Origin: Chelatococcus reniformis
Lineage (GTDB): Bacteria; Pseudomonadota; Alphaproteobacteria; Rhizobiales; Beijerinckiaceae
NCBI RefSeq assembly: GCF_014640075.1
Contig: NZ_BMGG01000010.1
Coordinates: forward strand, 186,001 to 250,000
Reading direction: 5' to 3'
Length of the DNA: 64,000 nt
Under the pieces are notes generated by a model. It saw nothing but the letters and a program-made list of their open reading frames with translations. It did no database searches and was not told the DNA's origin. Made by a program: the position numbers and the translations under genes. Within the stretch, counting starts at the first letter, position 1. Each line of letters begins with the position of its first letter. Positions 5,034 to 22,775 of this stretch are shown here, in pieces.

Positions 5034-5037
<4 letters not shown>
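4174..5037 (-). CDS. livF: Branched-chain-type ABC transporter ATP-binding protein LivF with long C-terminal tail
   Basis: This is the second ATPase of a LivKHMGF-type importer. It has Walker A (GPNGAGKTS), the signature LSGGERQML and Walker B (FLMLDEPSLGL), plus the LivF-typical EQNARAAL. Translation should start at the GTG at 5037, which shares a GTGA overlap with the livMG stop. The next gene starts in an ATGA overlap at the 3' end, so the transporter and GlcD-like genes are coupled. The protein is about 287 aa against roughly 235 for most LivF proteins. The last 50 or so residues, after YLGMGRTGG, form a low-complexity Ala/Pro/Arg/Glu tail with no recognisable motif. It could be a real extension or a local loss of the original stop. 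Confidence 0.9.
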
Positions 5038-6802
<1,765 letters not shown>

Positions 6803-6806
<4 letters not shown>

Positions 6807-7843
6807 TCCGCCTCCTCTTCCACATGCGGGCTGGCGAGGGAGCGCCAGAACAAGACCGGGGTGATCAGGGTGAAGACGATGACGTCCCGGTAAGCGCTGG
6901 CCCAGAAGGAGGCGAACGCCTCGACGAGGCCGACGAGCAGCGCGCCGAGGGCGGCGAGCGGATAGATCGCCAGCGCGCCGACGATGGCCCCGACGAAGCC
7001 CTTCAGGCCGAGAATGAAGCCCGAGTCGTAGTAGAGCGTCGTCATCGGGCCGATGAGGATGCCCGAGATCGCGCCGATCAGGCCGGCGACGATGAAGGCA
7101 GTGCGGCCGGCGGCCGTGGCGCTGACGCCGATCAGCTCGGCGCCGCGCCGGTTGTGGGCGGCGGCGAGCAGCGCCTTGCCGCTGAGCGAGCGGCGGAAGA
7201 ACAGGCTGAGCAAGCCGACGAGCACGAGGCTGCTCGCGATCACCCCCACCGTCTGGCGGGTGACCACGAGATCGCCGACAACGAGGGGCGGACCGGCAAA
7301 TCCAGGCGTGCGGACACCTTCGGCGCCGAAGACGTGCAGGCCGATGCTGCTGAGGCCGAAATGGGCGGCGACTGCCGCGATCAGCAGCACCAGCGGCGAG
7401 GCCGCGGCGATCGGCTCGAAGACGAGACGATAGAGAATGGGCCCCAGGCAGGTGATCAGGGCGCAGGTGACCGCCATCTTCCACAACAACGGCGCCTCCT
7501 TCGGCACCAGGAACAGCGCCGTCAGCACGATGGCGGCGGGGACGGCGCCGAACCACAGCGCGGCGGAGGCGAGGCCCGCCAGGTTGCGCTCGCCCGCCGC
7601 CTTGCCGCCGGCAAGGATCAGTGCCAGGGCCGCGCCCAAGGCGAGGATCCAGACCGTGCCCGGGGTGTGCCCGGCCTCGAAGGCCGCGAGCGTCAGCGCG
7701 CTGAACGCGATGAGGTCGCCCTGCGGCACGAAGACGATGCGGGTGACGGTGAAGACGAGCACCAGGACGGTCGCCAGCAGGACGTAGACCGCGCCATTGG
7801 CGACGCCGTCTTGAAAAAGGACGGCGGCAATATCGAAGGTCAT
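6803..7843 (-). CDS. livH: Branched-chain-type ABC transporter permease LivH
   Basis: This integral membrane permease partners the fused LivM-LivG and carries solute across the inner membrane. Of 346 aa, most lie in about eight hydrophobic segments. The LivH-type N-terminus includes DGVANGAVYVLLATVLVLVFTVTRIVFVPQGD. Family blocks near AAHNRRGAELIGVS and YYDSGFILGLKGFVGAIVGAL are also present. I chose the ATG at 7843. An alternative initiator six codons upstream is possible. It lies 64 bp downstream of the binding protein gene and overlaps the next gene by 4 bp, so it is the first permease gene of the operon. Confidence 0.92.
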
Positions 7844-7907
7844 TCGGCGTCCCCATGCCAAGAGATATGACGGGAGGCGAGCAGAGACGAGCGATCCATC
7901 GCCGTCT

Positions 7908-9068
7908 CTACTTGACGAGCTTCCAGCCGCCGTCGACGATCTGCGTCATCACGGCGGAGCGCTCGTCGAGGCCGAGGTGGTCGGTCGGCGACAACGTGTA
8001 GACGCCGTTCGGTCCGGCGACGTCCCTGGTGCTTTCGATGGCGTCGCGTAGTGCGGCACGGAAGGCCGGCGTCCCTGGCGTGGCCTTGGCGCTCGCGGCG
8101 GCGATGGCCTTGTCGAGGATGAGCTGCGCGTCCCACAGATAGGCGGCGAAGGTGGAGCGGGCACCGGCGCCGGGCAACGCCTCGTAGCGGCGGATGAAGT
8201 CGAGCGCAGGCGCCTTGGCCGCGTGGCTGTCGGGCAGTTGCTCGGCGACCAGGACGGGTCCGGCCGGCACGAAGGTGCCCGCCAGGGCCGCACCGCCGAC
8301 CCGCAGGAAGTCGTTGTTGGCGACCCCGTGCGTTTGGTAGACGACGCCCTTGTAGCCCCGCTCCGCCAGCGTGGTTTGCGGCAGCGCGGCGGGTGTGCCC
8401 GAGGCGGCGATGAACACCGCCTGTGGTTGCTTCGACATGATCTTGAGGATGGGTCCGATGACGCTGGTGTCGGTGCGCTGATAGCGCTCGGAGGCGACCA
8501 CCTCGATGCCGGCCGCCTGGGCGAGCTTGGTCATCTCCTTGATCCAGCCTTCGCCGTAGGCGTCGCTGAAGCCGATGAAGGCGACGCTCTTGAGGCCCTG
8601 ACGCTGCATATGATCGATGACGATGCGCGCCATCTGGGCGTCGCTCTGCGGCGTCTTGAAGGTCCAGTGGCGCTTGGCGTCGACGGGACTGACGATGAGT
8701 GCCGAGCCGGCCAGGCTGATCATCGGCGTGCCGGTGTCGGTGACCAGATCGAGCAAAGCGAGCGAATTGGGCGTGAGGCTCGGGCCGATGATGACATCCA
8801 CCTTGTCGTCGGTGATGAGCTTCTGGGCGTGCTTGACGGCGGTCGACGTGTCCGAGGCATCGTCGAGCAGAACATAGTCCGCCTTCAGGCCGCCTAGCGT
8901 GCTGGGAAGTATGCCCGCCGTCCTTTGCTGCGTGATGCCGACGGACGCGGCGGGGCCGGTGGCCGAGACGATGATGCCGACCTTGACTTGCGCCCACGCC
9001 GGCATGACGACGACGGTCGCAGCGGCGAGCCCGAAGATAAGCCTTCTCAAGAAAGTAAGCCTTTTCAC
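7908..9068 (-). CDS. LivK-like periplasmic substrate-binding protein (ABC, HAAT family)
   Basis: This 386-aa periplasmic receptor delivers solute to the LivH/LivMG/LivF transporter encoded just downstream. The N-terminus is a Sec-type signal peptide (MKRLTFLRRLIFGLAAATVVVMPAWAQ), cleaved after a plausible AWA-Q. The mature part starts VKVGIIVSATGPAASVG, the usual first strand of type I periplasmic binding proteins. Translation starts at a GTG at 9068, preceded at 4 to 5 nt by a very strong ribosome-binding site, AGGGAGGA. It is the first gene of the seven-gene operon ending at 1236, and a palindromic operator lies about 200 bp upstream. The downstream oxidases suggest a 2-hydroxyacid ligand, possibly aromatic. 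This is an inference. Confidence 0.9.
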   Translation of the reverse strand: MKRLTFLRRLIFGLAAATVVVMPAWAQVKVGIIVSATGPAASVGITQQRTAGILPSTLGGLKADYVLLDDASDTSTAVKHAQKLITDDKVDVIIGPSLTPNSLALLDLVTDTGTPMISLAGSALIVSPVDAKRHWTFKTPQSDAQMARIVIDHMQRQGLKSVAFIGFSDAYGEGWIKEMTKLAQAAGIEVVASERYQRTDTSVIGPILKIMSKQPQAVFIAASGTPAALPQTTLAERGYKGVVYQTHGVANNDFLRVGGAALAGTFVPAGPVLVAEQLPDSHAAKAPALDFIRRYEALPGAGARSTFAAYLWDAQLILDKAIAAASAKATPGTPAFRAALRDAIESTRDVAGPNGVYTLSPTDHLGLDERSAVMTQIVDGGWKLVK

Positions 9069-9270: not shown

Positions 9271-9290
9271 TAGACCAATCGTTCGGTCTA
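9271..9290. promoter_or_regulatory. Operator copy 1 of the TetR-type palindrome, in front of the transporter/hydroxyacid operon
   Basis: The sequence TAGACCAATCGTTCGGTCTA has perfect outer arms (TAGACC/GGTCTA) and matches 19 of 20 positions of the consensus formed by the copies at 13353, 15898 and 16089. Read leftward, it sits in the spacer between TTTACT and TATTAA, which are 17 bp apart. That is where a repressor would block the promoter of the operon starting at 9068. The regulator is probably the TetR gene at 13620-14255. The remaining bases between 9069 and 9360 show no gene. Confidence 0.7.
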
Positions 9291-9360
9291 GTAAATGGTC
9301 AATCGGCCATGGGCGGGCCGCGAACGGCACGGCAATGCCGTTGCCGTGGAATCGATCGCA

Positions 9361-9684
9361 TCAAACCTGCCGCTCGGGTACATCGACCAAAAGTCCGTCT
9401 AATTCGGAGGTAACCTCGATCCGGCAAGACAGTCGTGAGCGGCGTTCGTCCACGTCCAAGGCAAATTCGAGCATGCTCGCCTCGAGCTCGCCCTTCGGCG
9501 GCAGGTGGCCGATCCACGCCTCGTCCACGTACACATGGCAGGTGGAACACGCGCAGGCGCCGCCGCAATCGGCCAGAATGCCGGCCACGCCGTTGTTGCG
9601 GCCGCCTTCCATCAGCGTCAGACCCGGCGCGACGTCGACGACGATCGCCTCGCCGAAGCTGGAGCGGTAGGTAATCCTGGCCAT
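9361..9684 (-). CDS. Adrenodoxin-type [2Fe-2S] ferredoxin
   Basis: This 107-aa electron carrier has Cys40, Cys46, Cys49 and Cys87. The C-x5-C-x2-C...C spacing ([10 protein letters not shown], then LSCRI) is that of adrenodoxin/putidaredoxin-type ferredoxins that serve oxygenases. The ATG at 9684 fits the family start ([11 protein letters not shown]). The frame continues upstream only through a dispersed repeat. It lies 188 bp downstream of the fused oxidoreductase on the same strand. It is the only small ferredoxin in the window, so it may supply the Rieske dioxygenase at 16147-17923, for which no reductase gene is seen. Alternatively it could accept electrons from the oxidoreductase. Confidence 0.88.
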
Positions 9685-9721
9685 GCTTGGTCCGTTACGT
9701 TGCTGCGCCCAAGTCAAGGGC

Positions 9722-9833
9722 GTCATAGCCGGGCTTGAGCCGGCCATTCATCGAATAAAAGGGTGAGGCTCTCAGAATTGCACTTCTTGTCTTGTTCAAA
9801 GTGGATGGATGGGCCGGGTCAGGCCCGGCCATG
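9722..9833. repeat. Inverted pair of dispersed MAGLDPAIH-type palindromic repeats
   Basis: Two copies of a roughly 30-bp element lie head to head at 9722-9753 and 9803-9833. The core is a palindrome of CCGGGC-type arms flanked by CATCCATC-like ends. Related copies occur at 13448, 14463, 17927, 17988, 24946 and 25009. When read through, one frame gives MAG-x-DPAIH-like peptides, so short reading frames starting here are not genes. This fills the gap between the oxidoreductase and the ferredoxin. Confidence 0.8.
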
Positions 9834-9872
9834 GCGTGGAGATGGGCTTCGATGGCGGGCGTCGCTAGCGAT

Positions 9873-12800
9873 TTACTCGGCGGCAACGGCCGGCGTTGCA
9901 CGCTCATCCTTGATGCGTGCCAGCAGATCGAGCCGCTTCGCCGCGGCTGCGTCGATGCTGCGCTTCTTCACGTGACCATAGCCGCGGATCGTCTCCGGCA
10001 GCCGGGCCAGGACGACGGCGGCGGCGTGGTTCTCCGCGGTCAGCGCACCGGCCGCCGCCGCCATGTCCGTCTCGTATTGCGCGATCAGCGCCCGCTCCTC
10101 GCGGCGGTCGGGGTGATAGCCGAAAACGTCCAGAGGCGTGCCGCGCAGCGGCCGCAGGCGTGCCAGGAGGCGAAGGACAGGCAGGATCCACGGACCAATG
10201 CGCCGCTTGAGCGGCAGCCCCGTGACGGGGTCGCGGCGGGCGAGGATGGGCGATGCGAGGTGGAAGGCGAGCTTGGTCCCGGGCCCGAACTGCTCGTCCA
10301 CCTGCGTCCGGAAGACACCGTCGGTGTAGAGCCGGGCCACCTCGTACTCGTCCTTGTAGGCCATCAGCTTCGCCAGGTTAAGGGCGACCGCGTGCGCCAG
10401 ATCTCCCGCCGCGCCGATCGCCATCCTTTCGGCTACGGCCACGGCCTCGACCTGGCGCCGATAGCGCGCCGCATAGGCGTCGTCCTGGTAGGCGGCGAGG
10501 AGGGCGGTGCGGCGGTTCATCACCTCGTCCCATCGTGGCGCCCCGGCTGCCTCCGGCTCGGCGACGGCGGTGGGCCAGGCGGCGTAGTGGCGACCGAGGG
10601 CGAAGGCGCGCCGATTGAGCCCGACGGCCGCGCCGTTCAGCTCGATCGCCTTCAGGATGGCGGCCTCGGAGAGGGGCAGGAGGCCCTTTTGCCAGGCGTA
10701 GCCGACCATGAGCAGGCCGGCCCCGATCTCGTCGCCGAGCTGCGCGCGGGCGATGGCCCGGGCGGCCAGCAGGTCGGCGCGCTCGTCCAGCACATCGGCG
10801 ACAGCCGCCTTGAGCCGGGGGGTGGCGAAGTCGAGGTCGGGATCGCGCGTGAAGCGGCCGTCGACGGCCTGTTCGGTGCAGATGACGGCGCGCGCCGACT
10901 CGCGGTCCAGGAGGCCGAGCAGCGTGGGATCGGCGCAGACGCCGAGATCCCCGCCGATCATCAGCCGGGCCTGGCGTTCGGCGATGCGGACGCTGCCGAG
11001 CGCCTCGGGGCTCCCGGCGATGCGCACGTGGCTGTTCACGGCGCCGTATTTCTGCGCCATGCCGAGCTTGTCATGGATGGTGAAGGGCTTGCCCTCCAGA
11101 TGTGCCGCCATGCCGAGGATGGCGCCCACCGTGACGATGCCGGTGCCGCCGACGCCCGCGATGACGATGTCGTAGGTCGCGCCGGGGCGGATCGCCAGGG
11201 GCGGCGGCTCTGGCAGATCGCCGCTCGGCAGCGGCGCCGGCTCGCGCTTGCGCAGGCCGCCTTCGACGGTGACGAAGCTCGGGCAGAAGCCCTCGACGCA
11301 CGACAGGTCCTGGTTGCAGCTGGTCTGGTCAATGGCGCGCTTGCGGCCGAACTCCGTCTCGACGGGCACCACCGACAGGCAGTTGGACTTGGCCGAGCAA
11401 TCGCCGCAGCCTTCGCAGACCCGCTCGTTGATGACGACGCGCCGGGGTGCCTCGGCCATCGTGCCGCGCTTGCGCCGCCGCCGCTTCTCGGTGGCGCAGA
11501 CCTGGTCGTAAATCAGCACGCTGACGCCGGGCGCCTCGCGCAGCTCCCGCTGCACCTGGTCGAGCTCCTCGCGCGGCCTCACGGCAAGCGCCGAGGGCAG
11601 GACGACGCCGGCGTAGCGCGCGGGGTCGTCAGCGACCAAGGCGATGCGCCGGACCCCTTCCGCCTGGAGCTGGCGCACCAGCACGGGGACGGAGAACTCG
11701 CCCTCGACCGGCTGGCCGCCGGTCATGGCGATCGCGTCGTTGAACAGGATCTTGTAGGTGACGTTGACCCCGGCGGCGAGGGCAGCGCGGATGGCCAGGC
11801 TGCCCGAGTGGAAATAGGTGCCTTCGCCCAGGTTGACGAAGACGTGGCCCGTCCGGGTGAACGGGGCGGTGCCGATCCAGGGCACGCCTTCGCCGCCCAT
11901 CTGCGTGAAGGTCTCCGTATGGCGCTCCATGCCGGTCGCCATGAAGTGGCAGCCGACGCCGGCCAGCGCGCGGCTGCCGTCCGGCACCTTGGTCGACGTG
12001 CTGTGCGGGCAGCCGGAGCAGAAGTAGGGCGTCCGCGCCATGATCGCGGCCGGGCGCGGCTCGGCTGCTCGCAGCAGCAGCGTGTTGAGCAGGCGCCGGC
12101 GATCCGGATCGAGGTGGGCCGACAGTTCAGGCGCCAGTGCGCGCAGGATCGGCAGCGGGCCGAGCTCGCCCACCATGGGAAACTGCCGCTCACCGCGGCG
12201 ATTTGCGCGGCCGAGCACGACGGGGGCGGCGCCTTCGTCCTGTCCGTAGAGGGCAGTCCGCACCTGGGCCTCGAGCAGATCCCGCTTCTCCTCGATGACG
12301 AGCACCGTGGCATGGCCGCGGCAGAAGGCGCGCAGCGCCGCTTCGTCGACGGGCCAGGGCATGCCGATCTTGTAGATGGAGATCCCGAGGGATGCCGCCG
12401 CGGCGAGGTCGAGGTGGAGCAGCCCCAGCGCCTGCACGAGGTCCAGATACGACTTGCCGGCCGTGACGATCGCCAGGCGGGGGGATGCGGCGCGGGCAAC
12501 GGTGCGGTTGAGGCCGTTCGCCCGGGCGTAGGCGAGGGCGGCCGGCAGCTTGACCTCCAGCAGCCGCAGCTCGACGTCGGGCCAGGGGTCCGGCCAGCGG
12601 ATCCAGCGGTCGTTGACCGGGCCCAGGGGCTCGGGCTCCGCGGCCGTCAGCCGGTGGAGGCCCACATCGACGACAGCGGTGGAGTTCACGTGCTCGGCCA
12701 AGACCTTGAGCCCGACGTAGCAGCCGGAATAGCGCGACATCTCCCAGCCGTGGCCGGCGTAGTCGAGCATCTCCTGAATGTCTGCCGGGTAGAGCACCGG

Positions 12801-13304
12801 CATCTGCATGTCGATGAAGGTAGGCTCGGAGTGATAGGCTTGGCTCGACGACTTCAGGGCATGGTCGTCGCCGCTCACCACCAGCACGCCGCCGCGCCGC
12901 GAGGCGCCGGCACCGTGCGCATGGCGCAGGGCGTCGCCGCAGCGGTCGAGGCCGGCGCCTTTGCCGTACCACAGGCCGAACACGCCTTCGACCGTTGCGT
13001 TGGGGTCCAGGGCCACCTGCTGGCTGCCCCAGACGGCGGTGAGCGCCAGATCCTCGTTGATGCCGGGCACGAAGCGGATGTCCTCGCGGGCGAGATGCCC
13101 GGCCGCTTGCCACGCCTCGCTGTCGAGGCTGGCGAGCGGCGAGCCGCGGTAGCCGCTGAGAAAGCCGGCGGTGCGGTAGCCGCGGCGGCGATCGAGGCGC
13201 CGCTGGCGCAGCATGGCGACGAGCAAGGCCTGCGTGCCGTTGAGGACCACGGCCCCGTCCTGCGCCGTGTATCGGTCGTCGAGCGCGACGGATCTGAGCT
13301 GCAT
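9873..13304 (-). CDS. Fused indolepyruvate-type ferredoxin oxidoreductase (2-oxoacid:ferredoxin oxidoreductase)
   Basis: This 1143-aa enzyme oxidatively decarboxylates a 2-oxo acid with CoA to an acyl-CoA, using thiamine diphosphate and iron-sulfur clusters. Members act on aryl pyruvates such as indolepyruvate and phenylpyruvate. The N-terminal half is IorA-like (FLSGYRGSPLASLD, GINEDLALTAVWGSQQ and the cysteine-containing YFCSGCPHSTST), with a ThDP region around GEGTYFHSGSLAIRAALA. A cysteine-rich segment (CEGCGDCSAKSNCLSV and SCNQDLSCVEGFC) should bind clusters. The last part is the IorB-like gamma domain (IVIAGVGGTGIVTVGAILG). The length fits the fused aerobic type. A palindromic operator lies 49 bp upstream. 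With the hydroxyacid oxidases upstream in the proposed pathway and a CoA ligase nearby, it probably makes an arylacyl-CoA. A 2-oxo acid of another class is possible. Confidence 0.92.
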   Translation of the reverse strand: MQLRSVALDDRYTAQDGAVVLNGTQALLVAMLRQRRLDRRRGYRTAGFLSGYRGSPLASLDSEAWQAAGHLAREDIRFVPGINEDLALTAVWGSQQVALDPNATVEGVFGLWYGKGAGLDRCGDALRHAHGAGASRRGGVLVVSGDDHALKSSSQAYHSEPTFIDMQMPVLYPADIQEMLDYAGHGWEMSRYSGCYVGLKVLAEHVNSTAVVDVGLHRLTAAEPEPLGPVNDRWIRWPDPWPDVELRLLEVKLPAALAYARANGLNRTVARAASPRLAIVTAGKSYLDLVQALGLLHLDLAAAASLGISIYKIGMPWPVDEAALRAFCRGHATVLVIEEKRDLLEAQVRTALYGQDEGAAPVVLGRANRRGERQFPMVGELGPLPILRALAPELSAHLDPDRRRLLNTLLLRAAEPRPAAIMARTPYFCSGCPHSTSTKVPDGSRALAGVGCHFMATGMERHTETFTQMGGEGVPWIGTAPFTRTGHVFVNLGEGTYFHSGSLAIRAALAAGVNVTYKILFNDAIAMTGGQPVEGEFSVPVLVRQLQAEGVRRIALVADDPARYAGVVLPSALAVRPREELDQVQRELREAPGVSVLIYDQVCATEKRRRRKRGTMAEAPRRVVINERVCEGCGDCSAKSNCLSVVPVETEFGRKRAIDQTSCNQDLSCVEGFCPSFVTVEGGLRKREPAPLPSGDLPEPPPLAIRPGATYDIVIAGVGGTGIVTVGAILGMAAHLEGKPFTIHDKLGMAQKYGAVNSHVRIAGSPEALGSVRIAERQARLMIGGDLGVCADPTLLGLLDRESARAVICTEQAVDGRFTRDPDLDFATPRLKAAVADVLDERADLLAARAIARAQLGDEIGAGLLMVGYAWQKGLLPLSEAAILKAIELNGAAVGLNRRAFALGRHYAAWPTAVAEPEAAGAPRWDEVMNRRTALLAAYQDDAYAARYRRQVEAVAVAERMAIGAAGDLAHAVALNLAKLMAYKDEYEVARLYTDGVFRTQVDEQFGPGTKLAFHLASPILARRDPVTGLPLKRRIGPWILPVLRLLARLRPLRGTPLDVFGYHPDRREERALIAQYETDMAAAAGALTAENHAAAVVLARLPETIRGYGHVKKRSIDAAAAKRLDLLARIKDERATPAVAAE

Positions 13305-13352
13305 GCGGCGCCGCTTTCTTGCCCGGAAACTGCTGTTGCTGCAGATTGAGCA

Positions 13353-13372
13353 TAGTCCGAACGATCGGTCAA
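13353..13372. promoter_or_regulatory. Operator copy 2 upstream of the ferredoxin oxidoreductase
   Basis: TAGTCCGAACGATCGGTCAA matches 16 of 20 positions of the shared palindrome. On the minus strand it abuts a possible -10 element (TATGCT) about 50 bp before the oxidoreductase ATG. The remaining sequence up to 13619 carries no gene. It includes only a degenerate copy of the dispersed palindromic repeat at about 13448-13478. Confidence 0.6.
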
Positions 13373-13619
13373 TGATTTGATTGGCTGCCGCGTATCCGAG
13401 AGGGTCCAGCCGGCGTGCGGGCGGAGCTTCGGCGTTCAGACCGAGGCATGTCCCGGCCTGCGCCGGTCATCCATCATCTTGAATTAAAACGGACAATGAT
13501 CCAGGCGCCGACCCGATGCGGCGGCAGAGCCGCGATGGCGATCTGTCCAGTCAGGTTGAATGGCCGGGACGGTGATGACGCCGGGGCGCAGGCGCTCTGC
13601 AACGAAACCGGTGGCCCGC

Positions 13620-14255
13620 TCAGGCCTTGACGGCGACGCGCGGCGGCGCGGAAAGGGCGCCGTCGAAGTGGCTGTAGCCTTGCAGGAAGATGTCGACGCT
13701 ACGGTCGGCGATCTCCTTGGGCGAGATCGCGCCGTTGGCCACGAACCAGGTGTAGGTCCAGTTGATCATGCCGAAGAAGAGCATGGTGTCGACCTGGGTC
13801 AGGCCCGGTTCGCGCGCAAGGTCCGGCCGGATGCGGGCGAGCTCGTCGTGCACGTAGGCGACGAGCTTGCGCTCCTTGTCGAGCACGGTATCGCGGGCCT
13901 CGGGCGGCAGGAACTCCATGCAGGTCAGCAGCACGACGTGCTTGTCGCGCGAGACCGCGTAGATCTCGAGGAAGTGGCGGATCAGCTCGCGGAAGCGCAC
14001 CTCGGGCTCCTTCTTGCGGCGGACGATCTGCTTGCACTCGACGAGCAGCTTGTCCACGTGCGTGGTCATCATCTGCTCAAGAATTGATTCTTTAGAATCG
14101 AAATAATGATAAAGGCGGGACTTGGAGCATTCGCACGCCTCGGCGATGTCGCCGATGGAAGTCGCCGCATAGCCGCGAGTCGCAAATAGAGCTGCGGTCC
14201 GTTCGATGATGAACATTTGGATCGTGTCGTAGTCCGGCGACCGCGTCCTTGCCAC
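13620..14255 (-). CDS. TetR-family transcriptional regulator, probable repressor of the aromatic-acid regulon
   Basis: This 211-aa regulator has a classic TetR helix-turn-helix (ERTAALFATRGYAATSIGDIAEACECSKSRLYHYFDSKESIL) and a divergent helical ligand-binding half. I chose the GTG at 14255 because it follows directly on the mapped promoter. The more upstream frame would run through that promoter. A near-perfect half of the shared palindrome lies immediately downstream of its own TATAAT element, consistent with autorepression. The gene sits between the oxidoreductase and the CoA ligase, both preceded by full copies of the palindrome. The effector is likely an aromatic acyl-CoA or acid. That is inference from neighbours. 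Confidence 0.88.
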   Translation of the reverse strand: MARTRSPDYDTIQMFIIERTAALFATRGYAATSIGDIAEACECSKSRLYHYFDSKESILEQMMTTHVDKLLVECKQIVRRKKEPEVRFRELIRHFLEIYAVSRDKHVVLLTCMEFLPPEARDTVLDKERKLVAYVHDELARIRPDLAREPGLTQVDTMLFFGMINWTYTWFVANGAISPKEIADRSVDIFLQGYSHFDGALSAPPRVAVKA

Positions 14256-14279
14256 TATCCGAATCCCGCGAAAAAATGT

Positions 14280-14320
14280 TTGACCGATCGGATTATATGT
14301 GGCCGGGGAACACAAGGCAA
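14280..14320 (-). promoter_or_regulatory. Promoter of the TetR gene with overlapping operator half-site
   Basis: On the minus strand, TTGCCT (14320-14315) and a perfect TATAAT (14297-14292) are separated by 17 bp. Immediately downstream lies TTGACCGATC in plus-strand notation (14280-14289). It matches 9 of 10 bases of the conserved left arm of the regulon palindrome, while the right arm is degenerate. A repressor bound here would sit at the start site. Confidence 0.65.
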
Positions 14321-14462
14321 TTTGCCTTTCGGCCGCGGGGGCAGCGGCGGGCGCTTCGCGCAGGGAGGTGTGAGCGTTTCCGCCGCGTCATGGGCCCGAC
14401 CCGGCCCTCCATCCGCCTTGAAGCGCCAGCCGATACCCAGCCTTGACGCCATTTGACCGTTC

Positions 14463-14492
14463 GATGGATGGCCGGGGCAGCCCGGCCATGAC
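14463..14492. repeat. Dispersed MAGLDPAIH-type palindromic repeat
   Basis: A single copy of the GATGGATGGCCGGG...CCCGGCCATGAC element lies between the TetR promoter and the 3' end of the CoA ligase. It may act as a stem-loop 3' to the ligase transcript. No gene is seen in 14321-14509. Confidence 0.75.
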
Positions 14493-14509
14493 GAGGCGCG
14501 TGGTGCCGT

Positions 14510-15832
14510 CTACCCCGCCTCGGCCCGGTGCAGGACACGGGTGGCCTTGGCTTCGTAGCGCGGCAGGGTGCCTTCGGTGGCGCATTCGACCTCGGCGCTG
14601 ATGCCGAGCCGGGCGCGGATCTCGCGGCGCACGTCGGCGGCGATGGCGTCGGCGGGCCGGCCGGACTGCCCCTCGGCCTCGACGGCGACGCGCATGGTGC
14701 CGATGGTGCTCCGCTCCTTGTCGACATAGATCTGCCAGGCCTCCTTCACCGTGCCCGCCGTCTTGGCGACGATGTCCTCAATCTGAGAGGGGAACACGAT
14801 GACGCCCTTCACTTTGATCATGTCGTCGGTGCGGCCGATGATGCGGCTGATCTTGCGCATGCCCCGGCGGCCGGACGGGCAGTCGAACGGCGAGGCGGAG
14901 AGCCGCACGAGGTCGCGTGTCCGCCAGCGCACCACCGGCGAGGCCTCGCGGCCGAGCGTCGTGACGACGATCTCCCCGACCTCGCCCGGCCCTACCGGTG
15001 CCAGCGTCTTGGGGTCGAGGATCTCGGTGATCACGGTGTCCTCGTTGACCAGCTGGAGCTCGTCGTCGGCGTGGGTGTGGGGCGTCGAGATGGCCAGGAT
15101 CGGGCCGCCGGCCTCGGTGGTGCCGTAGATGTTGTGGCTGACGAAGCCGTCCGGCATCGCGGCCTCGAGCTGGGTGCGGAACTCGGTCGATACCGACTGG
15201 CCGCCCAGGATGCCGAGCTTCAGCCCCCACTCGCGCTTGGGATCGATGCCGAGCTCGCGGGCCGTGCTGACCAAGGTCATCAGCCACAGCGGCGACATCG
15301 ATGCGACCTCGTAGCGGTGGTCGCGCATCCACTTGACCACCAGTTCGCCGCGGCCCGGCCCGATGGGCACGGTGGCGCAGCCGAGCGCGGCGAAGCCGGC
15401 ATCGAGCGCCGGGCCGCCGATCCACAGGCCGTAGCCGTAGCCCTGATAGGCGCGCTGGCCGCGCTGCACGCCGGCCGCCGTGAGGACGCGGGCCATCTGG
15501 TAGGGCAGCAGCCGGCGGAAGTCGTTTCCCGTCATGCCGAACATTACCGGCAGCCCGGTGGTCCCCGACGTCGCCATGAAGCGCTCGATCGCCTCCATGG
15601 GTGCGGTGAGAAAGGGGAACGGATAGCGGGCGTGCAGGCTCGACTTGTCGAGGAAAGGGGCGTGGGCGAGGCCATCCGCCGCCGCCAGATCGCGCGGGTT
15701 CATGCCGGCCGATCGGAAGTGGGCGATCCACTCGTCGCTTTGGGCGAGCCGCTGACTCAAGGCGGCGAGTCGCTCGCGCTGCAGGGCGAGCAGCGCGTCG
15801 TGATCGAGCGTTTCGATCTCGGGGTGCATCAT
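14510..15832 (-). CDS. Phenylacetate-CoA ligase (PaaK)-like aromatic acid CoA ligase
   Basis: This 440-aa ATP-dependent ligase activates a carboxylic acid to its CoA thioester. It has the PaaK architecture: an N-terminal helical segment (ERLAALSQRLAQSDEWIAHFR), the ATP loop MATSGTTGLPVMFG, the acyl-pocket block NIYGTTEAGGP, RTRDLVRL, and the C-terminal hinge GRTDDMIKVKGVIVFPSQIED. PaaK enzymes are shorter than typical acyl-CoA synthetases and favour aryl acetates or aryl carboxylates. Translation begins at tandem ATGs (15832/15829). A copy of the regulon palindrome lies within its promoter. Together with the oxidoreductase it offers two routes to the same aryl-CoA pool, from the free acid or from the 2-oxo acid. 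The exact substrate is not resolved. Confidence 0.88.
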   Translation of the reverse strand: MMHPEIETLDHDALLALQRERLAALSQRLAQSDEWIAHFRSAGMNPRDLAAADGLAHAPFLDKSSLHARYPFPFLTAPMEAIERFMATSGTTGLPVMFGMTGNDFRRLLPYQMARVLTAAGVQRGQRAYQGYGYGLWIGGPALDAGFAALGCATVPIGPGRGELVVKWMRDHRYEVASMSPLWLMTLVSTARELGIDPKREWGLKLGILGGQSVSTEFRTQLEAAMPDGFVSHNIYGTTEAGGPILAISTPHTHADDELQLVNEDTVITEILDPKTLAPVGPGEVGEIVVTTLGREASPVVRWRTRDLVRLSASPFDCPSGRRGMRKISRIIGRTDDMIKVKGVIVFPSQIEDIVAKTAGTVKEAWQIYVDKERSTIGTMRVAVEAEGQSGRPADAIAADVRREIRARLGISAEVECATEGTLPRYEAKATRVLHRAEAG

Positions 15833-15891
15833 CGGCTCAGGCCTTCCTCCCGGCGCGGTGCGCTCGGCGATGTCTTGGTTGTGGTTAAGGT

Positions 15892-15920
15892 AAAACATAG
15901 ACCGATCGTTCGGGCTATGC
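15892..15920 (-). promoter_or_regulatory. CoA ligase promoter with embedded operator copy 3
   Basis: Reading the minus strand, TTGCAT and TATGTT are exactly 17 bp apart. The spacer holds the palindrome TAGACCGATCGTTCGGGCTA (15898-15917), which matches 19 of 20 consensus positions. The geometry equals that of operator copy 1, whose hexamers TTTACT/TATTAA are also 17 bp apart. The ligase starts about 60 bp downstream. Confidence 0.7.
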
Positions 15921-16088
15921 AATCGGATTCACGCTGCGGAGCCGCGCGGGCCGCGCGAGCCGCCGATGCCCGCTGAGGCCTTGCTGAGCATGGGTCCCCG
16001 CGTTTGGGTGTCGATGCTGTGCCGCTTGTCTCACGGATCCTGCGGCGTCGCATGCGGCTTGACAGGCGTAACATTGGGCGGCAATTAA

Positions 16089-16108
16089 TAGCCCGAATGG
16101 TCGATCGT
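16089..16108. promoter_or_regulatory. Degenerate operator copy 4 upstream of the Rieske dioxygenase
   Basis: TAGCCCGAATGGTCGATCGT keeps the left arm of the regulon palindrome but only about half of the right arm (13 of 20 overall). It lies 38 bp before the dioxygenase ATG. It is the weakest copy and would need binding data. The rest of the divergent region 15921-16146 shows no gene. Confidence 0.4.
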
Positions 16109-16146: not shown

Positions 16147-17403
16147 ATGAACGACATGTCACCGGTGCGCGACTATCGCCGCCTCATCGAGCCGACGCGC
16201 GTGCACAGCGCGCTCTACTACGATCCGCAAGTCTTCCAGGAGGAGCTGAGCCGGATCTGGTACCGCGGCTGGGTCTATGTGGGACATGTGAGCGAGGTGC
16301 CCAATCGCAACGACTATGTCACCAAGTCGATCGGGCCGACGCCGGTGCTGATGGTGCACGACCGCCGCGGCGACATCAGCCTGCTCCTCAACAAATGCCC
16401 GCACCGGGGCAACCAGCTCTGTGCCTACAGTCAGGGCAATCGCACCAGCTTCACCTGCCCCTATCACTCCTGGACCTTCGCCAATTCGGGCGAGCTCATC
16501 GGCTATGCCTACGCCGACGGCTACCAGGGTGCCGACAAATCTCAATTCGCCCTGGGCCGGGTGCCCCGCATCGGCATCTACCGCGGCTTCGTCTTCGGCT
16601 CGTTCGCCGAGGACGGCCCCTCGCTCGACGATTACCTGGGTGGGGCCAAGGCCTCGATTGATCAACTGCTCGACAACTCGCCGGAGGGCGAACTCGAGCT
16701 CACCGCCGGCTTCCTCCAGCACCGCACCAAGGCCAATTGGAAGTTCATGCTGGAGAACGAGACCGACGGCTACCACCCGGCCTTCGTGCACGGTTCGATC
16801 TTCCAGGTGGCGGAGAGCGGCATCGGCAACCTCTACAGCCCGGCCTCCACGGCGCTGACCCGTGACTTCGGCAACGGCCACACCGAGTTCGACCTCAGGC
16901 CCGAGTGGCGCCGGTCGGCCAAGCCGCTTCAATGGTTCGGCACCGATGCCGAGCGCCTGCCCGGCTACGCGGCGGCGATGACCGCGGCCTACGGGGCAGA
17001 ACGTGCGCGGCAGATCATGATCGACGGCTCGCCGCACACCATGATCTTCCCCAACCTGTTCATCGCCGAGATCCAGCTCTTCGTGCTGCAGCCGGTCGCC
17101 GTCGACGAGACCATCCAGCACGTCACGGCGTTGCAATTCAAGGGCGCGCCGGAGCTGAACCGTCGGCTGCGCCAGCAGACCATGGGCTCGGTCGGCCCCG
17201 CGGGATTCCTGCTGGCCGACGACACCGAGATGTACGAGCGCAATCACCGCGGCGCCCTCATCCGCGATCCGGAGTGGGTGACGCTGATCCGCGGGTTGCA
17301 TCGGGAGGGCCGCGATGCCGATGGTTTCCGCATCGGCCACGCCACCGACGAGGTGCCGCAGCGCGGCATTTGGCGCCACTACCTAGATCTGATGACGTCG
17401 TAG
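16147..17403 (+). CDS. Rieske non-heme iron dioxygenase, large (alpha) subunit, benzoate/anthranilate class
   Basis: This is the catalytic subunit of a ring-hydroxylating dioxygenase, which adds O2 to an aromatic ring using electrons from a reductase/ferredoxin. Its 418 aa hold a Rieske [2Fe-2S] site (Cys84-x-His86 in CPHRG and Cys104-x2-His107 in CPYHSW) and the mononuclear iron facial triad region NETDGYHPAFVH. Asp207 there is the likely bridging residue and His210 and His215 are ligands. The third ligand is probably an Asp in LLADDTEMYERNHRG, a segment typical of the benzoate/anthranilate group. The ATG at 16147 follows a GGGGAGG-like site. The small subunit follows within about 10 bp. No dedicated reductase is adjacent. 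The natural substrate is unknown but may be an aromatic acid or its CoA ester. Confidence 0.92.
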   Translation: MNDMSPVRDYRRLIEPTRVHSALYYDPQVFQEELSRIWYRGWVYVGHVSEVPNRNDYVTKSIGPTPVLMVHDRRGDISLLLNKCPHRGNQLCAYSQGNRTSFTCPYHSWTFANSGELIGYAYADGYQGADKSQFALGRVPRIGIYRGFVFGSFAEDGPSLDDYLGGAKASIDQLLDNSPEGELELTAGFLQHRTKANWKFMLENETDGYHPAFVHGSIFQVAESGIGNLYSPASTALTRDFGNGHTEFDLRPEWRRSAKPLQWFGTDAERLPGYAAAMTAAYGAERARQIMIDGSPHTMIFPNLFIAEIQLFVLQPVAVDETIQHVTALQFKGAPELNRRLRQQTMGSVGPAGFLLADDTEMYERNHRGALIRDPEWVTLIRGLHREGRDADGFRIGHATDEVPQRGIWRHYLDLMTS

Positions 17404-17413
17404 GGTGACGAGG

Positions 17414-17923
17414 ATGAACGCGCAGATCGACGCCGCTGCGGTGGCGGCCCGAGAGGGGCTGCACCGGCTGGTCGAGCAGTTCCTGTTCAAGGAGGCCCGC
17501 CTCCAGGACACCCACGCCTACGACGAGTGGGAGGCCCTGTGGACGGACGATGGCATCTACTGGGTGCCGGCGAACGGCCACGACACCGATCCGGAGCGGA
17601 CGATGTCGTTCATCTACGACAACCGCTCGCGTATCGGCATCCGCATCGACCAGCTCAAGACCGGCCGCCGCCACACCCAGACGCCGCGCTCGGAGCTGGC
17701 GCGGGTGCTGTCCAACATCGAGATCGTGTCGCAGTCCGGTGACGAGATCGAGGTGCGCGCCAACGCCGTCGTGTTCGAGGACAATCTACGCGGCGAGACC
17801 GTCTGGGCCACGCGCAATGAATATCGGCTGCGGCTGGTGGACGGCGCGCTCAAGATGGCGCGCAAGAAGGTGGGCCTCGTGAACAACCACAAACCGATCT
17901 TCACGCTGTCGTTCCTCGTCTGA
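17414..17923 (+). CDS. Rieske dioxygenase small (beta) subunit
   Basis: This 169-aa structural subunit has the SnoaL/NTF2-like fold of ring-hydroxylating dioxygenase beta chains. Recognisable parts are VEQFLFKEARLQDTHAYDEWEALWTDDGIYWVPA, SFIYDNRSRIGIRIDQLKTGRRH, SNIEI, and the terminal ARKKVGLVNNHKPIFTLSFLV, all resembling BenB/AntB-type proteins. It follows the alpha gene at once. I favour the ATG at 17414 because an AGGG lies 8 nt before it. A GTG at 17405 is the alternative and would leave a 1-nt gap. The two subunits should form an alpha3beta3 enzyme. Confidence 0.9.
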   Translation: MNAQIDAAAVAAREGLHRLVEQFLFKEARLQDTHAYDEWEALWTDDGIYWVPANGHDTDPERTMSFIYDNRSRIGIRIDQLKTGRRHTQTPRSELARVLSNIEIVSQSGDEIEVRANAVVFEDNLRGETVWATRNEYRLRLVDGALKMARKKVGLVNNHKPIFTLSFLV

Positions 17924-17926
17924 GTA

Positions 17927-18019
17927 GATGGATGGCCGGGTCAAGCCCGGCCGTGACGTTCCAGGTCGAGCCACGCCAGTCCAAAGTCGTCATGGCCGGG
18001 CTTGACCCTGCCATCCATC
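17927..18019. repeat. Inverted pair of dispersed MAGLDPAIH-type repeats
   Basis: Two oppositely oriented copies (17927-17957 and 17988-18019) are separated by 30 bp. They occupy most of the gap between the dioxygenase beta gene and the enoyl-CoA hydratase gene. Together they could fold as a long hairpin in the transcript. The reading frame through them is not part of the hydratase. Confidence 0.8.
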
Positions 18020-18048
18020 AGACAAGCAATAAATCCAGGTTCTTTCCA

Positions 18049-18876
18049 ATGCCGCACAGTTTATCCACCGATCCCGAGCCCTGGATCGCCCACGGCCCGG
18101 TGCTCCTCGCCTACGCCGATGGTGTCGCCACCCTGACGCTCAACCGGCCGGCCGCATCGAACGGCATGAACATCGAGATGATGCAGGGCCTGTGCGCCGC
18201 GGTGATGCGCTGTCACGGCGATGCCCGGGTCCGGGTCGTCCACCTCCGGGGCGCGGGCGCAAACTTCTGCGCCGGCGGCGACGTGCGCGAATTCGCCTCC
18301 AAGGGCGAGGCGGTCGGCGACTTTCTCCGCGAGGTCACGGCCCACTTGCAGGTGGCAGTCGGTGCGCTGATCCGGCTCAACGCCATCGTCGTCGCCGAGG
18401 TCCACGGCTATGCCGCCGGCGGCGGCGGGCTCGGGCTGGTGTGCGCATCCGATCTGGTGATCGCCGCCGACAGCGCGCGCTTCATGGCCGGCGCCACGCG
18501 GGTCGGCATGGCCCCGGATGCCGGCTCCTCCGTCGTGCTGGCGCGGCTCATCGGCCTTCGCCGCGCCACGGAGCTGTTCGTCACCAACCGGGTCGTTGCC
18601 GCCGAGGAGGCGCGGGCGCTCGGCCTGATCAATCGCGTCGTTCCGGCGGGCGAGCTCGCGGTGGAAGCCCGGCGGCTGGCCGCCGAGGTCGCGGAGGGGG
18701 CCCCCAAGGCGCTGGCTGCCACCAAGCGCCTGCTGTGGAACGGCGTCGGCCTCGGCGTCGAGGCCTGTCTGCCCGAGGAAGCGCGGACCGTGGCCGAGCT
18801 GTCGGCCACTGCCGACAGCCGCGAGGGCCTCGCCGCGGTGATCGGCAAACGCCGCCCGGTCTTCTCCGGACGGTGA
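18049..18876 (+). CDS. Enoyl-CoA hydratase/isomerase family protein, PaaG-like active site
   Basis: This 275-aa crotonase-fold enzyme acts on acyl-CoA thioesters. The oxyanion-hole segments are present (GAGANFCAGGDVREFA and HGYAAGGGGLGLV). The usual hydratase glutamates are absent. The first position is Gly/Leu (GGGGLGLV) and the second block reads APDAGSS with Asp, the pattern of PaaG-type ring-epoxide or double-bond isomerases rather than classical hydratases. The ATG at 18049 lies just beyond the repeat pair and gives the normal family length. It is codirectional with the dioxygenase genes and may process the aryl-CoA product. Family assignment is firm and function is inferred. Confidence 0.85.
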   Translation: MPHSLSTDPEPWIAHGPVLLAYADGVATLTLNRPAASNGMNIEMMQGLCAAVMRCHGDARVRVVHLRGAGANFCAGGDVREFASKGEAVGDFLREVTAHLQVAVGALIRLNAIVVAEVHGYAAGGGGLGLVCASDLVIAADSARFMAGATRVGMAPDAGSSVVLARLIGLRRATELFVTNRVVAAEEARALGLINRVVPAGELAVEARRLAAEVAEGAPKALAATKRLLWNGVGLGVEACLPEEARTVAELSATADSREGLAAVIGKRRPVFSGR

Positions 18877-18946: not shown

Positions 18947-19744
18947 TCAGACGCTCGGAACGCCGACCCCTTCGAGGAAGCGGGCGATGTGGGGTTGGCC
19001 GGTGTGGGCGGTGAGGCCGCCGTCCACGGGCACGATCGCGCCGACCATGAAGGAGGCGTCGTCGCTGGCCAGGAACGCGACGACGGCGGCGATCTCCTCG
19101 GGCTGGGCGAAGCGCCCCAGCGGCACCCGCTCGTCCCAGTGCTCGCGCAGGCCCGGCATCTCGTTGACGCGCGCGATGATCGGGGTGTCGACCGGGCCGG
19201 GGCAGACCGCGTTGACGCGGATGCCGGCGCGGGCGAGGCCGATGCCCAGGGCGCGGGTATAGTTGATCACCGCGCCCTTCGCTGCGTTGTAGGCGTCGAA
19301 ATTGAAGTCGCCGGCCATGCCCGAGATCGAGGCGGTGTTGACGATGGCGCCCGACCCCTGCGCCGTCATGATCGGGATGGCCGCCTTGCAGCCGAAGAAG
19401 ACGCTGTCGACGTTGACGGCGAACACCCGGCGCCAATCCTCCTCGGGCAGGTCGACCGTCGTGCTGTGCGAGCCGATGCCGGCGTTGTTGAACAGCACGT
19501 CGAGCCGGCCGTGCCGGCGCGCCACCTCCTGGATCGCCTCCGCCATCTGCGCCCGGTCGGCGACGTCCACACGGCGGAACGCCATGCGCTCGCCGCCGGC
19601 CGCGCGCACCAGCTCGGCGCCGCGTTCCTCGTCGAGGTCGAAGGCGACGACGGATGCGCCCTCGCCGTGCAGCCGGCGCGCCGTCGCCGCGCCGATGCCC
19701 GAGGCCCCGCCCGTGATGATCGCCACTTTGCCCGAAAAGCGCAC
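18947..19744 (-). CDS. Short-chain dehydrogenase/reductase (SDR), NAD(P)-dependent
   Basis: This 265-aa classical SDR has the cofactor motif TGGASGIGAATARRL, NNAGIG, a catalytic Ser (NTASISGMAG) and YNAAKGAVINYTRALG with the Tyr-x3-Lys pair. An acidic residue after the second strand (VVAFDLDEERG) favours NAD. I chose the GTG at 19744 because a strong GGGAGGA lies 7 nt upstream. The ATG at 19771 would place that ribosome-binding site inside the gene. It follows the zinc dehydrogenase after 63 bp on the same strand, so it likely belongs to the ThDP-enzyme operon and reduces or oxidises an alcohol or ketone made by it. Confidence 0.88.
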   Translation of the reverse strand: MRFSGKVAIITGGASGIGAATARRLHGEGASVVAFDLDEERGAELVRAAGGERMAFRRVDVADRAQMAEAIQEVARRHGRLDVLFNNAGIGSHSTTVDLPEEDWRRVFAVNVDSVFFGCKAAIPIMTAQGSGAIVNTASISGMAGDFNFDAYNAAKGAVINYTRALGIGLARAGIRVNAVCPGPVDTPIIARVNEMPGLREHWDERVPLGRFAQPEEIAAVVAFLASDDASFMVGAIVPVDGGLTAHTGQPHIARFLEGVGVPSV

Positions 19745-19807
19745 GCTCGTTCCTCCCGCTGCTTCGTCCATTCCGGCTTCGACGCCGGCCGTCCCTTTAT
19801 GGTCCTG

Positions 19808-22641: not shown

Positions 22642-22747
22642 CGTGTCCTCCCGTGTCGCTGGCCATCCGGCGCGGACCGTGGTCTCGCGCGGCGCCTCGT
22701 CTTGAACGCTGGTCCGGCGCGGGCCGCCGGCTGGCATCGGCATAAAT

Positions 22748-22775
22748 TTATTAGAGTGGACTCTAAATATGTCAA
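22748..22775 (-). promoter_or_regulatory. Promoter of the ThDP-enzyme operon with embedded TTAGAG...CTCTAA operator
   Basis: On the minus strand, TTGACA (22775-22770) and TAATAA (22753-22748) are 16 bp apart. A perfect 16-bp palindrome, TTAGAGTGGACTCTAA (22751-22766), fills the spacer and overlaps the -10. The same layout recurs at 23538-23565. The adjacent divergent TetR gene is the obvious candidate repressor. Confidence 0.8.

Follow-up and report, generated by a model that had tools for sequence, protein, structure and literature searches.

We find a set of related palindromes in a 64,000-nucleotide stretch of Chelatococcus reniformis DNA (the window), beside genes for an aromatic-acid uptake system with two 2-hydroxyacid oxidases, a 2-oxoacid:ferredoxin oxidoreductase, a PaaK-like ligase, and a Rieske oxygenase. 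The palindromes are real and, judged from the DNA sequence, are located as operators would be. These sites, their conservation, the gene order, and the gene families are the observed base of a scheme that we regard as moderately probable. A TetR repressor (TetR1) would control a regulon in which an aryl 2-hydroxy or 2-oxo acid, or the free acid, is converted to a CoA ester whose ring is attacked by the Rieske enzyme, with an aryl-CoA as the probable inducer.

Palindromes and the genes beside them

The original prediction had reported a 20-base palindrome at four places, and its match counts are reproduced by our window search. The palindromes at 9271–9290 and 15898–15917 each have one mismatch to the 20-mer, that at 13353–13372 has two on the minus strand (16/20 on the plus strand), and that at 16089–16108 has seven (13/20). 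A shuffled-sequence control gave a mean of 0.00 matches in the window. The prediction had also suggested a genome-wide scan for the 20-mer as a check. Across 6.8 Mb, and allowing up to three mismatches, it returned three places, every one inside the cluster (two forward and three reverse matches, against 0 and 1 for a backward-read control).

An operator matrix was built from related loci (41 distinct sites), with the window left out. The five presumed operators take ranks 1 to 5 among the 63,981 window positions: 9271–9290 (33.5 bits), 13353–13372 (29.9 bits), 15898–15917 (27.9 bits), 14276–14295 (14.8 bits), and 16089–16108 (12.3 bits). Because the 41 sites were chosen for at least 15/20 agreement with the symmetrized palindrome, the ranks of the three strong sites are partly circular; the two weak sites (14276 and 16089) are the freer test. 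A half-site had been proposed at 14280. It fits better as a site in register 14276 than in register 14280, which scores 8.7 bits.

Two of the palindromes had further been placed in 17-bp promoter spacers. The best hexamer pair around 9271 agrees with this (TTTACT-17-TATTAA, 8/12); the pair around 15898 has a spacer of 18 bases and scores 7/12. Random positions average 5.7/12, with 17% reaching 7 and 2.4% reaching 8; pairs around 46 orthologous sites average 7.9/12. A stricter promoter scan found neither the 9271 nor the 15898 pair; it finds a TetR promoter, TTGCCT-17-TATAAT (14320–14292). Overlap of the operators with −35 and −10 elements is plausible, though unproven.

The site at 9271 would be the operator of a minus-strand operon for uptake and 2-hydroxyacid oxidation. 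This operon comprises SBP1 (7908–9068), a periplasmic aromatic-acid binding protein by phmmer, and a branched-chain type ABC transporter (Liv; 4174–7861), whose limits are approximate, from a translation read by eye (LivH about 6803–7840, fused LivM-LivG about 5034–6806, and LivF about 4174–4900). Next are a GlcD-type FAD 2-hydroxyacid dehydrogenase (2780–4177; TIGR00387, 299 bits, under the GlcD cut-off of 568) and, as the last gene, overlapping its neighbor, an LldD-type FMN 2-hydroxyacid dehydrogenase/oxidase (1624–2805; NCBIfam PRK11197, 345 bits with a cut-off of 376; LldD, 298 bits with a cut-off of 550). SBP1 matches 3sg0 (E = 2e-100), 4dqd (9e-99), and 7ylt (2e-94); we take the ligands of 3sg0 and 4dqd to be benzoylformate and phenylpyruvate, and presume from the neighboring entry 7yls that 7ylt is IadK2. 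The aromatic-acid binding label of these matches follows a passage of PMC10374108. The predicted structure of SBP1 has a mean pLDDT of 68.

Also on the minus strand are a 2Fe-2S ferredoxin gene (9361–9747; Pfam Fer2), with its real start probably downstream of 9747, and a fused indolepyruvate-type 2-oxoacid:ferredoxin oxidoreductase gene (IOR; 9873–13304; NF009589, 1476 bits, above the cut-off of 816). The ferredoxin is a possible electron carrier for the Rieske enzyme. The presumed operator at 13353 stands 49 bp ahead of the IOR start. TetR1 (13620–14255, minus strand; Pfam TetR_N and TetR_C_24) lies in an open reading frame that extends to 14315, with orthologues suggesting a start near 14255; the degenerate site at 14276, presumably autoregulatory, lies over its −10 box. 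The palindrome at 15898 is the presumed operator of the PaaK-like aryl-acid CoA ligase (14510–15832, minus strand; TIGR02155, 267 bits, under the PaaK cut-off of 646).

The weak presumed operator at 16089 precedes the plus-strand Rieske operon: the alpha subunit (16147–17403; Pfam Rieske and Ring_hydroxyl_A), the beta subunit (17405–17923; Ring_hydroxyl_B), and a crotonase/enoyl-CoA hydratase family protein (17932–18876). The family matches of the latter start only near residue 57; thus, its true start is probably downstream. Residues C84/H86/C104/H107 and H210/H215/D359 of Rieske alpha are invariant in 22 alignment rows, with roles assigned by alignment with IadD. An SDR gene beside the crotonase gene lies on the opposite strand and has 40% identity to the cluster SDR. 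No window match was obtained for the ferredoxin reductase and the hydrolase that related clusters carry. Overall, the gene identities first proposed (LldD-like and GlcD-like oxidases, aromatic-acid ABC system, ferredoxin, fused IOR, TetR, PaaK-like ligase, and Rieske alpha and beta) prove broadly right.

Conservation of sites and gene order

The sites recur in relatives. We found 56 palindrome sites in 23 related loci, against 0.8 expected, and 52 of them lie at most 400 bp ahead of a matched gene. Two of the 23 group A loci lack a site of at least 15/20, and in 11 such a site lies within 100 bp ahead of RieskeA. Sites of 16–18/20 occur shortly upstream of RieskeA in L055–L059 and L076, and in L055–L058 palindromes stand 18–27 bp ahead of the TetR1 match. 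These orthologous sites were caught by the 20-position score; a filter of 11/12 core bases had missed them. TetR1 orthologues (identity of at least about 54%) adjoin PaaK in all five family genomes, each of which has a 15–17/20 palindrome in the TetR/PaaK region or directly ahead of PaaK. Of the places in five genomes that differ from the orthologue consensus by no more than one base, all 12 fall inside the cluster. With up to two mismatches, the backward-read control, unsplit by mismatch number, exceeded the pattern in each genome, and two-mismatch places were therefore left unused. This phylogenetic footprinting supports the proposal that a single TetR regulon spans these operons.

The counts carry some redundancy: L028/L076, L032/L074, and L033/L091 are probably the same contigs twice, so that the five family genomes and the 23 loci are not fully independent, and the Xanthobacter loci L062, L063, L066, and L068 are closely related, making their sites non-independent events. 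Gene counts record presence anywhere in a locus at 40% identity or more (TetR1 at any identity), and contig ends cut off part of some loci. Window LivF and LivG matches were kept out of the counts, with LivF2 of L028 as the query instead.

The six closest (A1) loci keep the order SBP1, LivH, LivM, two ATPase genes, GlcD, IOR (in L057 this stretch stops within LivH, and SBP1 was established by a separate match). In all six, the GlcD-type gene (75–78% identity) is the last of the transporter operon and stands immediately ahead of IOR; identities are 71–76% for SBP1, 67–70% for LivH, and 66–73% for LivM. All six clusters have IOR homologues (46–47%). However, the window IOR has 51–52% identity to some IORs elsewhere in A2 genomes; thus, one ancestral gene for the window and cluster IORs is not established. 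Ferredoxin homologues (40–49%) occur in 14 of 17 A2 loci.

Within group A, TetR1 (20/23 loci) and PaaK (19/23; 69–79% identity) occur together with Rieske genes, and TetR1 orthologues of 54–63% adjoin PaaK/Rieske genes. Immediately after RieskeB comes a crotonase homologue (≥40%), in 20 of the 23 loci of group A and in 55 of the 57 of group B. These related loci support the chain originally proposed, from uptake through 2-hydroxyacid oxidase, 2-oxoacid oxidoreductase, and PaaK-like ligase to the Rieske enzyme. Locus L057, where no PaaK match was found, retains GlcD and IOR and carries an LldD-type homologue (56%) directly after RieskeB, as would be expected if IOR and the ligase were alternative makers of the CoA ester. 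More distant TetRs (31–40%; L034–L044) lie in loci with PaaK (10/11), IOR (5/11), and PaaA (5/11; 68–87%). An extradiol ring-cleavage gene was considered as a cluster part and rejected: searches with three queries, of type I extradiol-like or VOC type, found matches in 4 of 83 loci (L065, L070, L072, and L132), that in L065 being a fragment at the locus end.

Proposed pathway and alternatives

From these observations, we infer TetR binding, the inducer, the substrate, the order of steps, and the CoA-ester chemistry. A PaaR-like TetR1 would act on the TAGACCGAACGTTCGGTCTA-type palindrome, within or beside promoters, repressing its own gene and four units: aromatic-acid uptake with the 2-hydroxyacid oxidases, IOR, the PaaK-like ligase, and the Rieske/crotonase operon. 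By analogy with PaaR and MbdR, the inducer would probably be the aromatic acid in its CoA-ester form. The substrate imported would be an aryl 2-hydroxy or 2-oxo acid, which the GlcD and LldD types would oxidize to the 2-oxo acid. IOR would then yield aryl-acyl-CoA and CO2; starting from the free acid, the PaaK-like ligase would form a CoA ester of this kind as well. By analogy with ipf, the ferredoxin-fed Rieske enzyme would dihydroxylate the ring of this ester, and crotonase and SDR-type enzymes may process the product further.

A broader proposal, which we advance only tentatively, is that the conserved core of Rieske enzyme, crotonase, SDR, and alpha/beta-hydrolase forms an aerobic route via CoA esters that has not been described before. 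Here, the Rieske enzyme would replace the Paa/Box di-iron epoxidases, and ring opening would fall to crotonase, SDR, and hydrolase, with no ring-cleaving dioxygenase involved. The window's branch would be entered from an aryl 2-hydroxy acid via the ferredoxin-dependent oxidoreductase, sparing ATP for CoA activation.

The cluster might instead serve an auxin pathway like iad, with indole-3-acetate or indole-lactate degraded and the Rieske enzyme oxidizing the indole ring as IadDE does, a reading that we consider unlikely. IadD (9o71) is the best solved-structure match to Rieske alpha (E = 9e-57), and SBP1 has 7ylt, the presumed IadK2, among its best matches. However, Trp172 of IadK2 is apparently Tyr in SBP1, as in 3sg0 (position by sequence pattern). 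Identity of Rieske alpha to two iad-like Rieske proteins is only 33–35%, whereas IpfA reaches 42%; in a Rieske tree built without IadD itself, the iad-like rows separate (100/100). IadD pocket residues Leu211 and His311, whose roles are described in part of PMC10374108, align with Glu205 and Pro296. The genes iorB and iotA are given as markers of iad loci (PMC9613470), and in Bradyrhizobium japonicum on indoleacetate they are reportedly up 8-fold and 31-fold, respectively (PMC3788728), but the local regulator is a TetR rather than a MarR, the palindromes track the TetR, and no iad-type reductase/cyclase gene was seen among the annotated window genes.

A mandelate/benzoylformate pathway is quite unlikely in our view. 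The LldD and GlcD types would oxidize both mandelates, IOR would form benzoyl-CoA, the ligase would activate benzoate, and the Rieske enzyme would attack benzoyl-CoA or benzoate. Both oxidase types are present, and SBP1 is nearest to 3sg0 and 4dqd with their presumed ligands. BenA is the best NCBIfam match of Rieske alpha, although its 187 bits fall far under the cut-off of 781. The BoxB gene found in the genome (contig C1; 908 bits, cut-off 499) gives benzoyl-CoA another route and slightly lowered our estimate of this reading. Furthermore, IOR is described for arylpyruvates (PMC3788728), and phenylacetate is the name-giving substrate of the ligase family. Very unlikely, we think, is a supplementary phenylacetate regulon, with TetR1 as a second PaaR feeding PaaABCE and the Rieske operon a neighbor with a chance site. 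The window site ahead of the Rieske genes is weak, PaaA/PaaC-type genes exist in the genome, and related TetR, PaaK, and IOR genes occur in PaaA-bearing loci. Yet TetR1 and PaaK remain with Rieske genes in most group A loci, and better sites stand just ahead of RieskeA in L055–L059 and L076. The genome's phenylacetate region has no good site, its best score being 7.1 bits, and for this reason TetR1 as master regulator of the main phenylacetate genes was also rejected. No PaaA/PaaC gene was found on the window's contig (C10); the three PF05138 matches of the genome are on C2 and C1. Because phenylacetyl-CoA and benzoyl-CoA epoxidase genes lie elsewhere in the genome, the cluster is unlikely to act on plain phenylacetate or benzoate.

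If the TetR1 regulon acts as proposed, CoA-ester-linked Rieske attack on aromatic acids would be an ordinary regulated pathway of soil and marine Proteobacteria; the repressor gene and presumed sites are kept together across a range of such bacteria. With a clear operator motif and named strains (for example, Bradyrhizobium elkanii, L055, and Xanthobacter autotrophicus DSM 432, L063), substrate and inducer can be tested directly, and further genomes can be searched for the regulon with the motif.

Comparison with known systems

The cluster shares with the classical PaaABCE/PaaR system the PaaK family and related TetR regulators, with IOR and Liv/SBP neighbors in several family genomes. Unlike in that system, where PaaABCE is a di-iron epoxidase, ring attack in the window would presumably be by the Rieske enzyme. 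TetR1 resembles PaaR (Burkholderia cenocepacia and Thermus) and MbdR in its TetR family, link to aromatic CoA pathways, and palindromic operators, and, as for PaaR, the palindrome is found at promoter regions of pathway genes and of the regulator's own gene. Its match to 3vpr, which we take to be Thermus PaaR, is only 61 bits. B. cenocepacia PaaR is described as acting via an inverted repeat between −10 and −35 (PMC2770484), and PaaR and MbdR as induced by aryl-CoA esters (PMC4424350).

The ipfABDEF genes (upper ibuprofen pathway; Rhizorhabdus wittichii MPO218 pIBU218 and Sphingopyxis granuli RW412) likewise combine a CoA ligase with Rieske alpha and beta. Rieske alpha has 42% identity to IpfA over 99%, beta has 43% to IpfB, and the ipf rows group with groups A and B, weakly supported (87/49). 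In contrast, the window ligase is PaaK-like, whereas IpfF is a longer AMP-binding protein, and the TetR regulon, 2-hydroxyacid/IOR entry, and crotonase set the window apart. Neither the window nor any of the six A1 loci gave a match to the SCPx-type thiolase and OB-fold (DUF35) pair typical of ipf. Some A2 and B clusters are ipf-like in having thiolase and HMGS-like/OB-fold genes (HMGS/OB in 12 of 17 A2 loci), as are all six ipf-like relatives inspected (of 12 at 39–43%), with AMP ligase, thiolase, and OB-fold near the Rieske genes. Thiolases elsewhere in the genome reach at most 44% to the L028 thiolase, and a thiolase/OB-fold pair run from elsewhere by the same operator was rejected at the level of at most one mismatch, where the 12 operator places of the five genomes all lie in the cluster. 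In the ipf route as described, a CoA ligase acts first, a dioxygenase then attacks the CoA ester, and retro-aldol cleavage follows; ipfA is reportedly not regulated by ibuprofen (PMC9195938). The retro-aldol step of an ipf-type pathway would give a catechol.

The iad locus of Variovorax, with iad-like loci in Ruegeria and Azospirillum, shares Rieske alpha and beta, an IOR-type gene, a CoA ligase, and an aromatic-acid ABC binding protein. It differs in its MarR control, separate IorA and IorB, and FMN reductase IadC, and the Ruegeria locus carries cyclase and SDR genes. To our knowledge, Rieske attack on CoA-ester-linked aromatic acids belongs mainly to drug-pollutant and auxin pathways. The original view that aerobic aryl-acetate routes do without Rieske enzymes is not supported, given the published ipf (PMC9195938) and iad (PMC9613470; Rieske IadDE, marker genes iorB/iadB and iotA/iadA) routes. 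Aerobic aryl-acid routes that combine a Rieske enzyme with CoA esters are already on record, and the original claim of novelty holds only in part. We recognized no account of this cluster among the titles and abstract openings searched, most subscription journals lying outside that search; a 2025 paper among them concerns a benzoate-type Rieske product (PMC12442788). The cluster is probably a variation on established pathways for the degradation of drugs and plant hormones. What is apparently new is the package: PaaR-like TetR control, entry through a 2-hydroxyacid and the oxidoreductase alongside a PaaK-like ligase, and a core of Rieske enzyme, crotonase, SDR, and hydrolase.

Predicted operators and their conservation

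The original prediction placed copies of a 20-nt palindrome, the presumed TetR operator, at 9271, at 13353 (before IOR, a fused indolepyruvate-type 2-oxoacid:ferredoxin oxidoreductase), and at 15898. We find all three, with one, two, and one mismatches, respectively, where chance predicts none, and a scan of the whole genome (6.8 Mb, 39 contigs, ≤3 mismatches) returned only these matches. The weaker site at 16089, before the Rieske operon, and the half-site at 14280, before the repressor gene TetR1, are also present, the latter in a better register at 14276-14295 by matrix scoring. A matrix built from 41 distinct sites of related loci ranks the five window sites 1 to 5 of 63,981 positions; for the strong sites this ranking is partly circular, since the 41 were chosen by likeness (at least 15/20) to the palindrome first proposed, and symmetrised. 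Hexamers flanking the window sites give a moderate fit to operator placement between a -35 and a -10 box. In PMC2770484, PaaR of B. cenocepacia is described as working on an inverted repeat that lies in the spacer between the -35 and -10 elements.

TetR1 has a match at E ≤ 1e-30 in 21 of 149 family genomes (own genome counted). Five genomes besides its own show about 54% identity or higher. In all five, TetR1 adjoins a gene for a PaaK-like aryl-acid CoA ligase (PaaK; 71-74% identity), and a 15-17/20 palindrome lies within the TetR/PaaK region or directly 5' of PaaK. An alignment of the Rieske oxygenase alpha subunit (RieskeA) was also used to scan named genomes, giving 258 relatives. The best 80 of these form group A (23 loci, 75-83% identity) and group B (57 loci, 65-71%). 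A first-order Markov model predicts 0.8 sites of 15/20 or better in group A; 56 are observed, 52 of them no more than 400 bp 5' of a matched gene. L073 and L077 have no such site. Across five whole genomes, all 12 places with ≤1 mismatch to the orthologue consensus fall inside the cluster, while at ≤2 mismatches the control pattern outnumbers the real one. Group B has a diverged palindrome 5' of RieskeA or SBP2 in 28 of 57 loci (>14 bits, among the locus's best three), and 19 of 57 lack any palindrome above 14 bits. The site counts and their placement argue that TetR and its candidate operator are maintained together with this gene set. By conservation, the TetR1 regulon of predicted operators is real.

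We find 11 more distant TetR loci in the family (L034-L044, 31-40% identity to TetR1), with PaaK in 10, IOR in five, and the phenylacetyl-CoA epoxidase gene PaaA in five (L034, L037, L040, L043, and L044; 68-87% to own PaaA). Crotonase and Liv/SBP genes are also often present, and several loci (L034, L035, L040, L042-L044) have TTGACCG/TTAACCG-type palindromes. Among solved TetR proteins listed, 3ccy matches TetR1 far above every other (272 bits, E 2e-80); it is named only as putative and is usable as a modelling template.

Gene content of the related loci

The proposed gene chain is borne out as a conserved module in related loci. Crotonase directly follows RieskeB, the beta subunit gene, in 20 of the 23 loci of group A and 55 of the 57 of group B. 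The cluster SDR lies 3' of crotonase in 19 and 46, and an alpha/beta hydrolase is found in 17 and 40, respectively. Group A divides by transporter. A1 (L055-L060) and the window have in common SBP1, a periplasmic aromatic-acid binding protein (71-76% identity), and all six A1 operons run SBP1, LivH, LivM, two ATPase genes, GlcD (an FAD 2-hydroxyacid dehydrogenase), and IOR. The A2 binding protein (L061-L077) differs, being SBP3 in 16 of 17 loci. HMGS/OB-fold genes occur in 12 of 17 A2 loci and a thiolase of at least 40% in five, several loci ending before its possible position.

The window IOR is a stand-alone gene with its own candidate site. It may have been recruited separately from the A1 cluster IORs, because pairwise identities place it closer to some IORs located elsewhere in A2 genomes (51-52%) than to those of A1 clusters (46-47%). 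L057 retains GlcD and IOR, with no PaaK, crotonase, or SDR match in the locus. L058 (Bradyrhizobium viridifuturi) retains Rieske genes and sites, and its crotonase and SDR frames are shortened to 184 and 98 aa (11767-12584). In these two loci (L057 11803-14613; L058 11767-12584) the lower part is possibly decaying, with the IOR route remaining.

Adjoining the Rieske operon, window 18947-24882 holds genes for an SDR, a zinc alcohol dehydrogenase-like protein, and a ThDP-dependent enzyme on the minus strand, followed on the plus strand by another TetR gene and another binding protein of the branched-chain type; this is possibly a neighbouring regulon. The ferredoxin (9747) and crotonase (17932) frames open with a like stretch (MAGSSPAMT and MAGSSPAVT...VMAGLDPAIH). 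It may be an intergenic repeat taken for coding sequence, and both genes probably start farther downstream. A second RieskeA (68%; G000:C6:385621-386868; L136 9622-10875) occurs in the window's own genome, in a group B version of the locus that also has the beta subunit, crotonase, SDR, ferredoxin, and reductase genes, and operator-like palindromes of 12-18 bits lie nearby.

Probable substrate

SBP1 hits binding proteins for aromatic acids with E values near 1e-100; PMC10374108 is the source of that label for its cluster. Two strong PaaA/PaaC (phenylacetyl-CoA epoxidase) matches occur in the same genome, and the same genes are found in 19 of the 20 group A genomes that were examined, the exception being Tabrizicola; plain phenylacetate is thus probably handled already. 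By its gene content the genome also encodes benzoyl-CoA epoxidase (BoxB; G000:C1:649906-651327, 908 bits, cut-off 499), so benzoyl-CoA is probably served likewise. The likeliest node would be the CoA ester of an aryl-acetate-type acid, phenylacetyl-CoA itself excepted; IOR could form it from an aryl 2-oxo acid, and the ligase could make it by activating the free acid. Aryl-CoA esters are given as effectors of PaaR and MbdR in passages of PMC4424350.

Relation to ibuprofen and auxin degradation

In a search among plasmid records, the window RieskeA showed 42% identity over 99% to proteins of pIBU218 (NZ_CP059320, the record named in PMC9195938) and S. granuli RW412. In each of the six records examined, of 12 listed at 39-43%, genes for an AMP ligase, a thiolase, and an OB-fold protein lie close to the Rieske genes. 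The thiolase is labelled hypothetical in two: that of L138 was identified by a 40% match, and that of L153 is the same protein accession. According to PMC9195938, in the ibuprofen (ipf) pathway a ligase acts first, a dioxygenase then attacks the CoA ester, and a retro-aldol step releases propionyl-CoA and isobutylcatechol.

The best solved-structure match of the window RieskeA is IadD of auxin degradation (iad; 9o71, named as IadDE in PMC12633357), yet the window protein shares only 33-35% identity with two iad-like Rieske proteins. The IadD pocket residues Leu211 and His311, whose roles are described in PMC10374108, align with Glu205 and Pro296. A 31-row tree sets the window protein inside group A (support 100/100), joins groups A and B weakly with ipf (87/49, long branches flagged), and places iad-like proteins apart. 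The cluster enzymes are thus, on these comparisons, close to ipf and less closely related to iad, so the idea that aerobic aryl-acid routes do not use Rieske enzymes does not hold. Searches limited to open-licence papers listed no publication on this cluster. Apparently new relative to the known systems is the combination of predicted TetR control, a 2-hydroxyacid/IOR entry, and a crotonase-SDR-hydrolase core.
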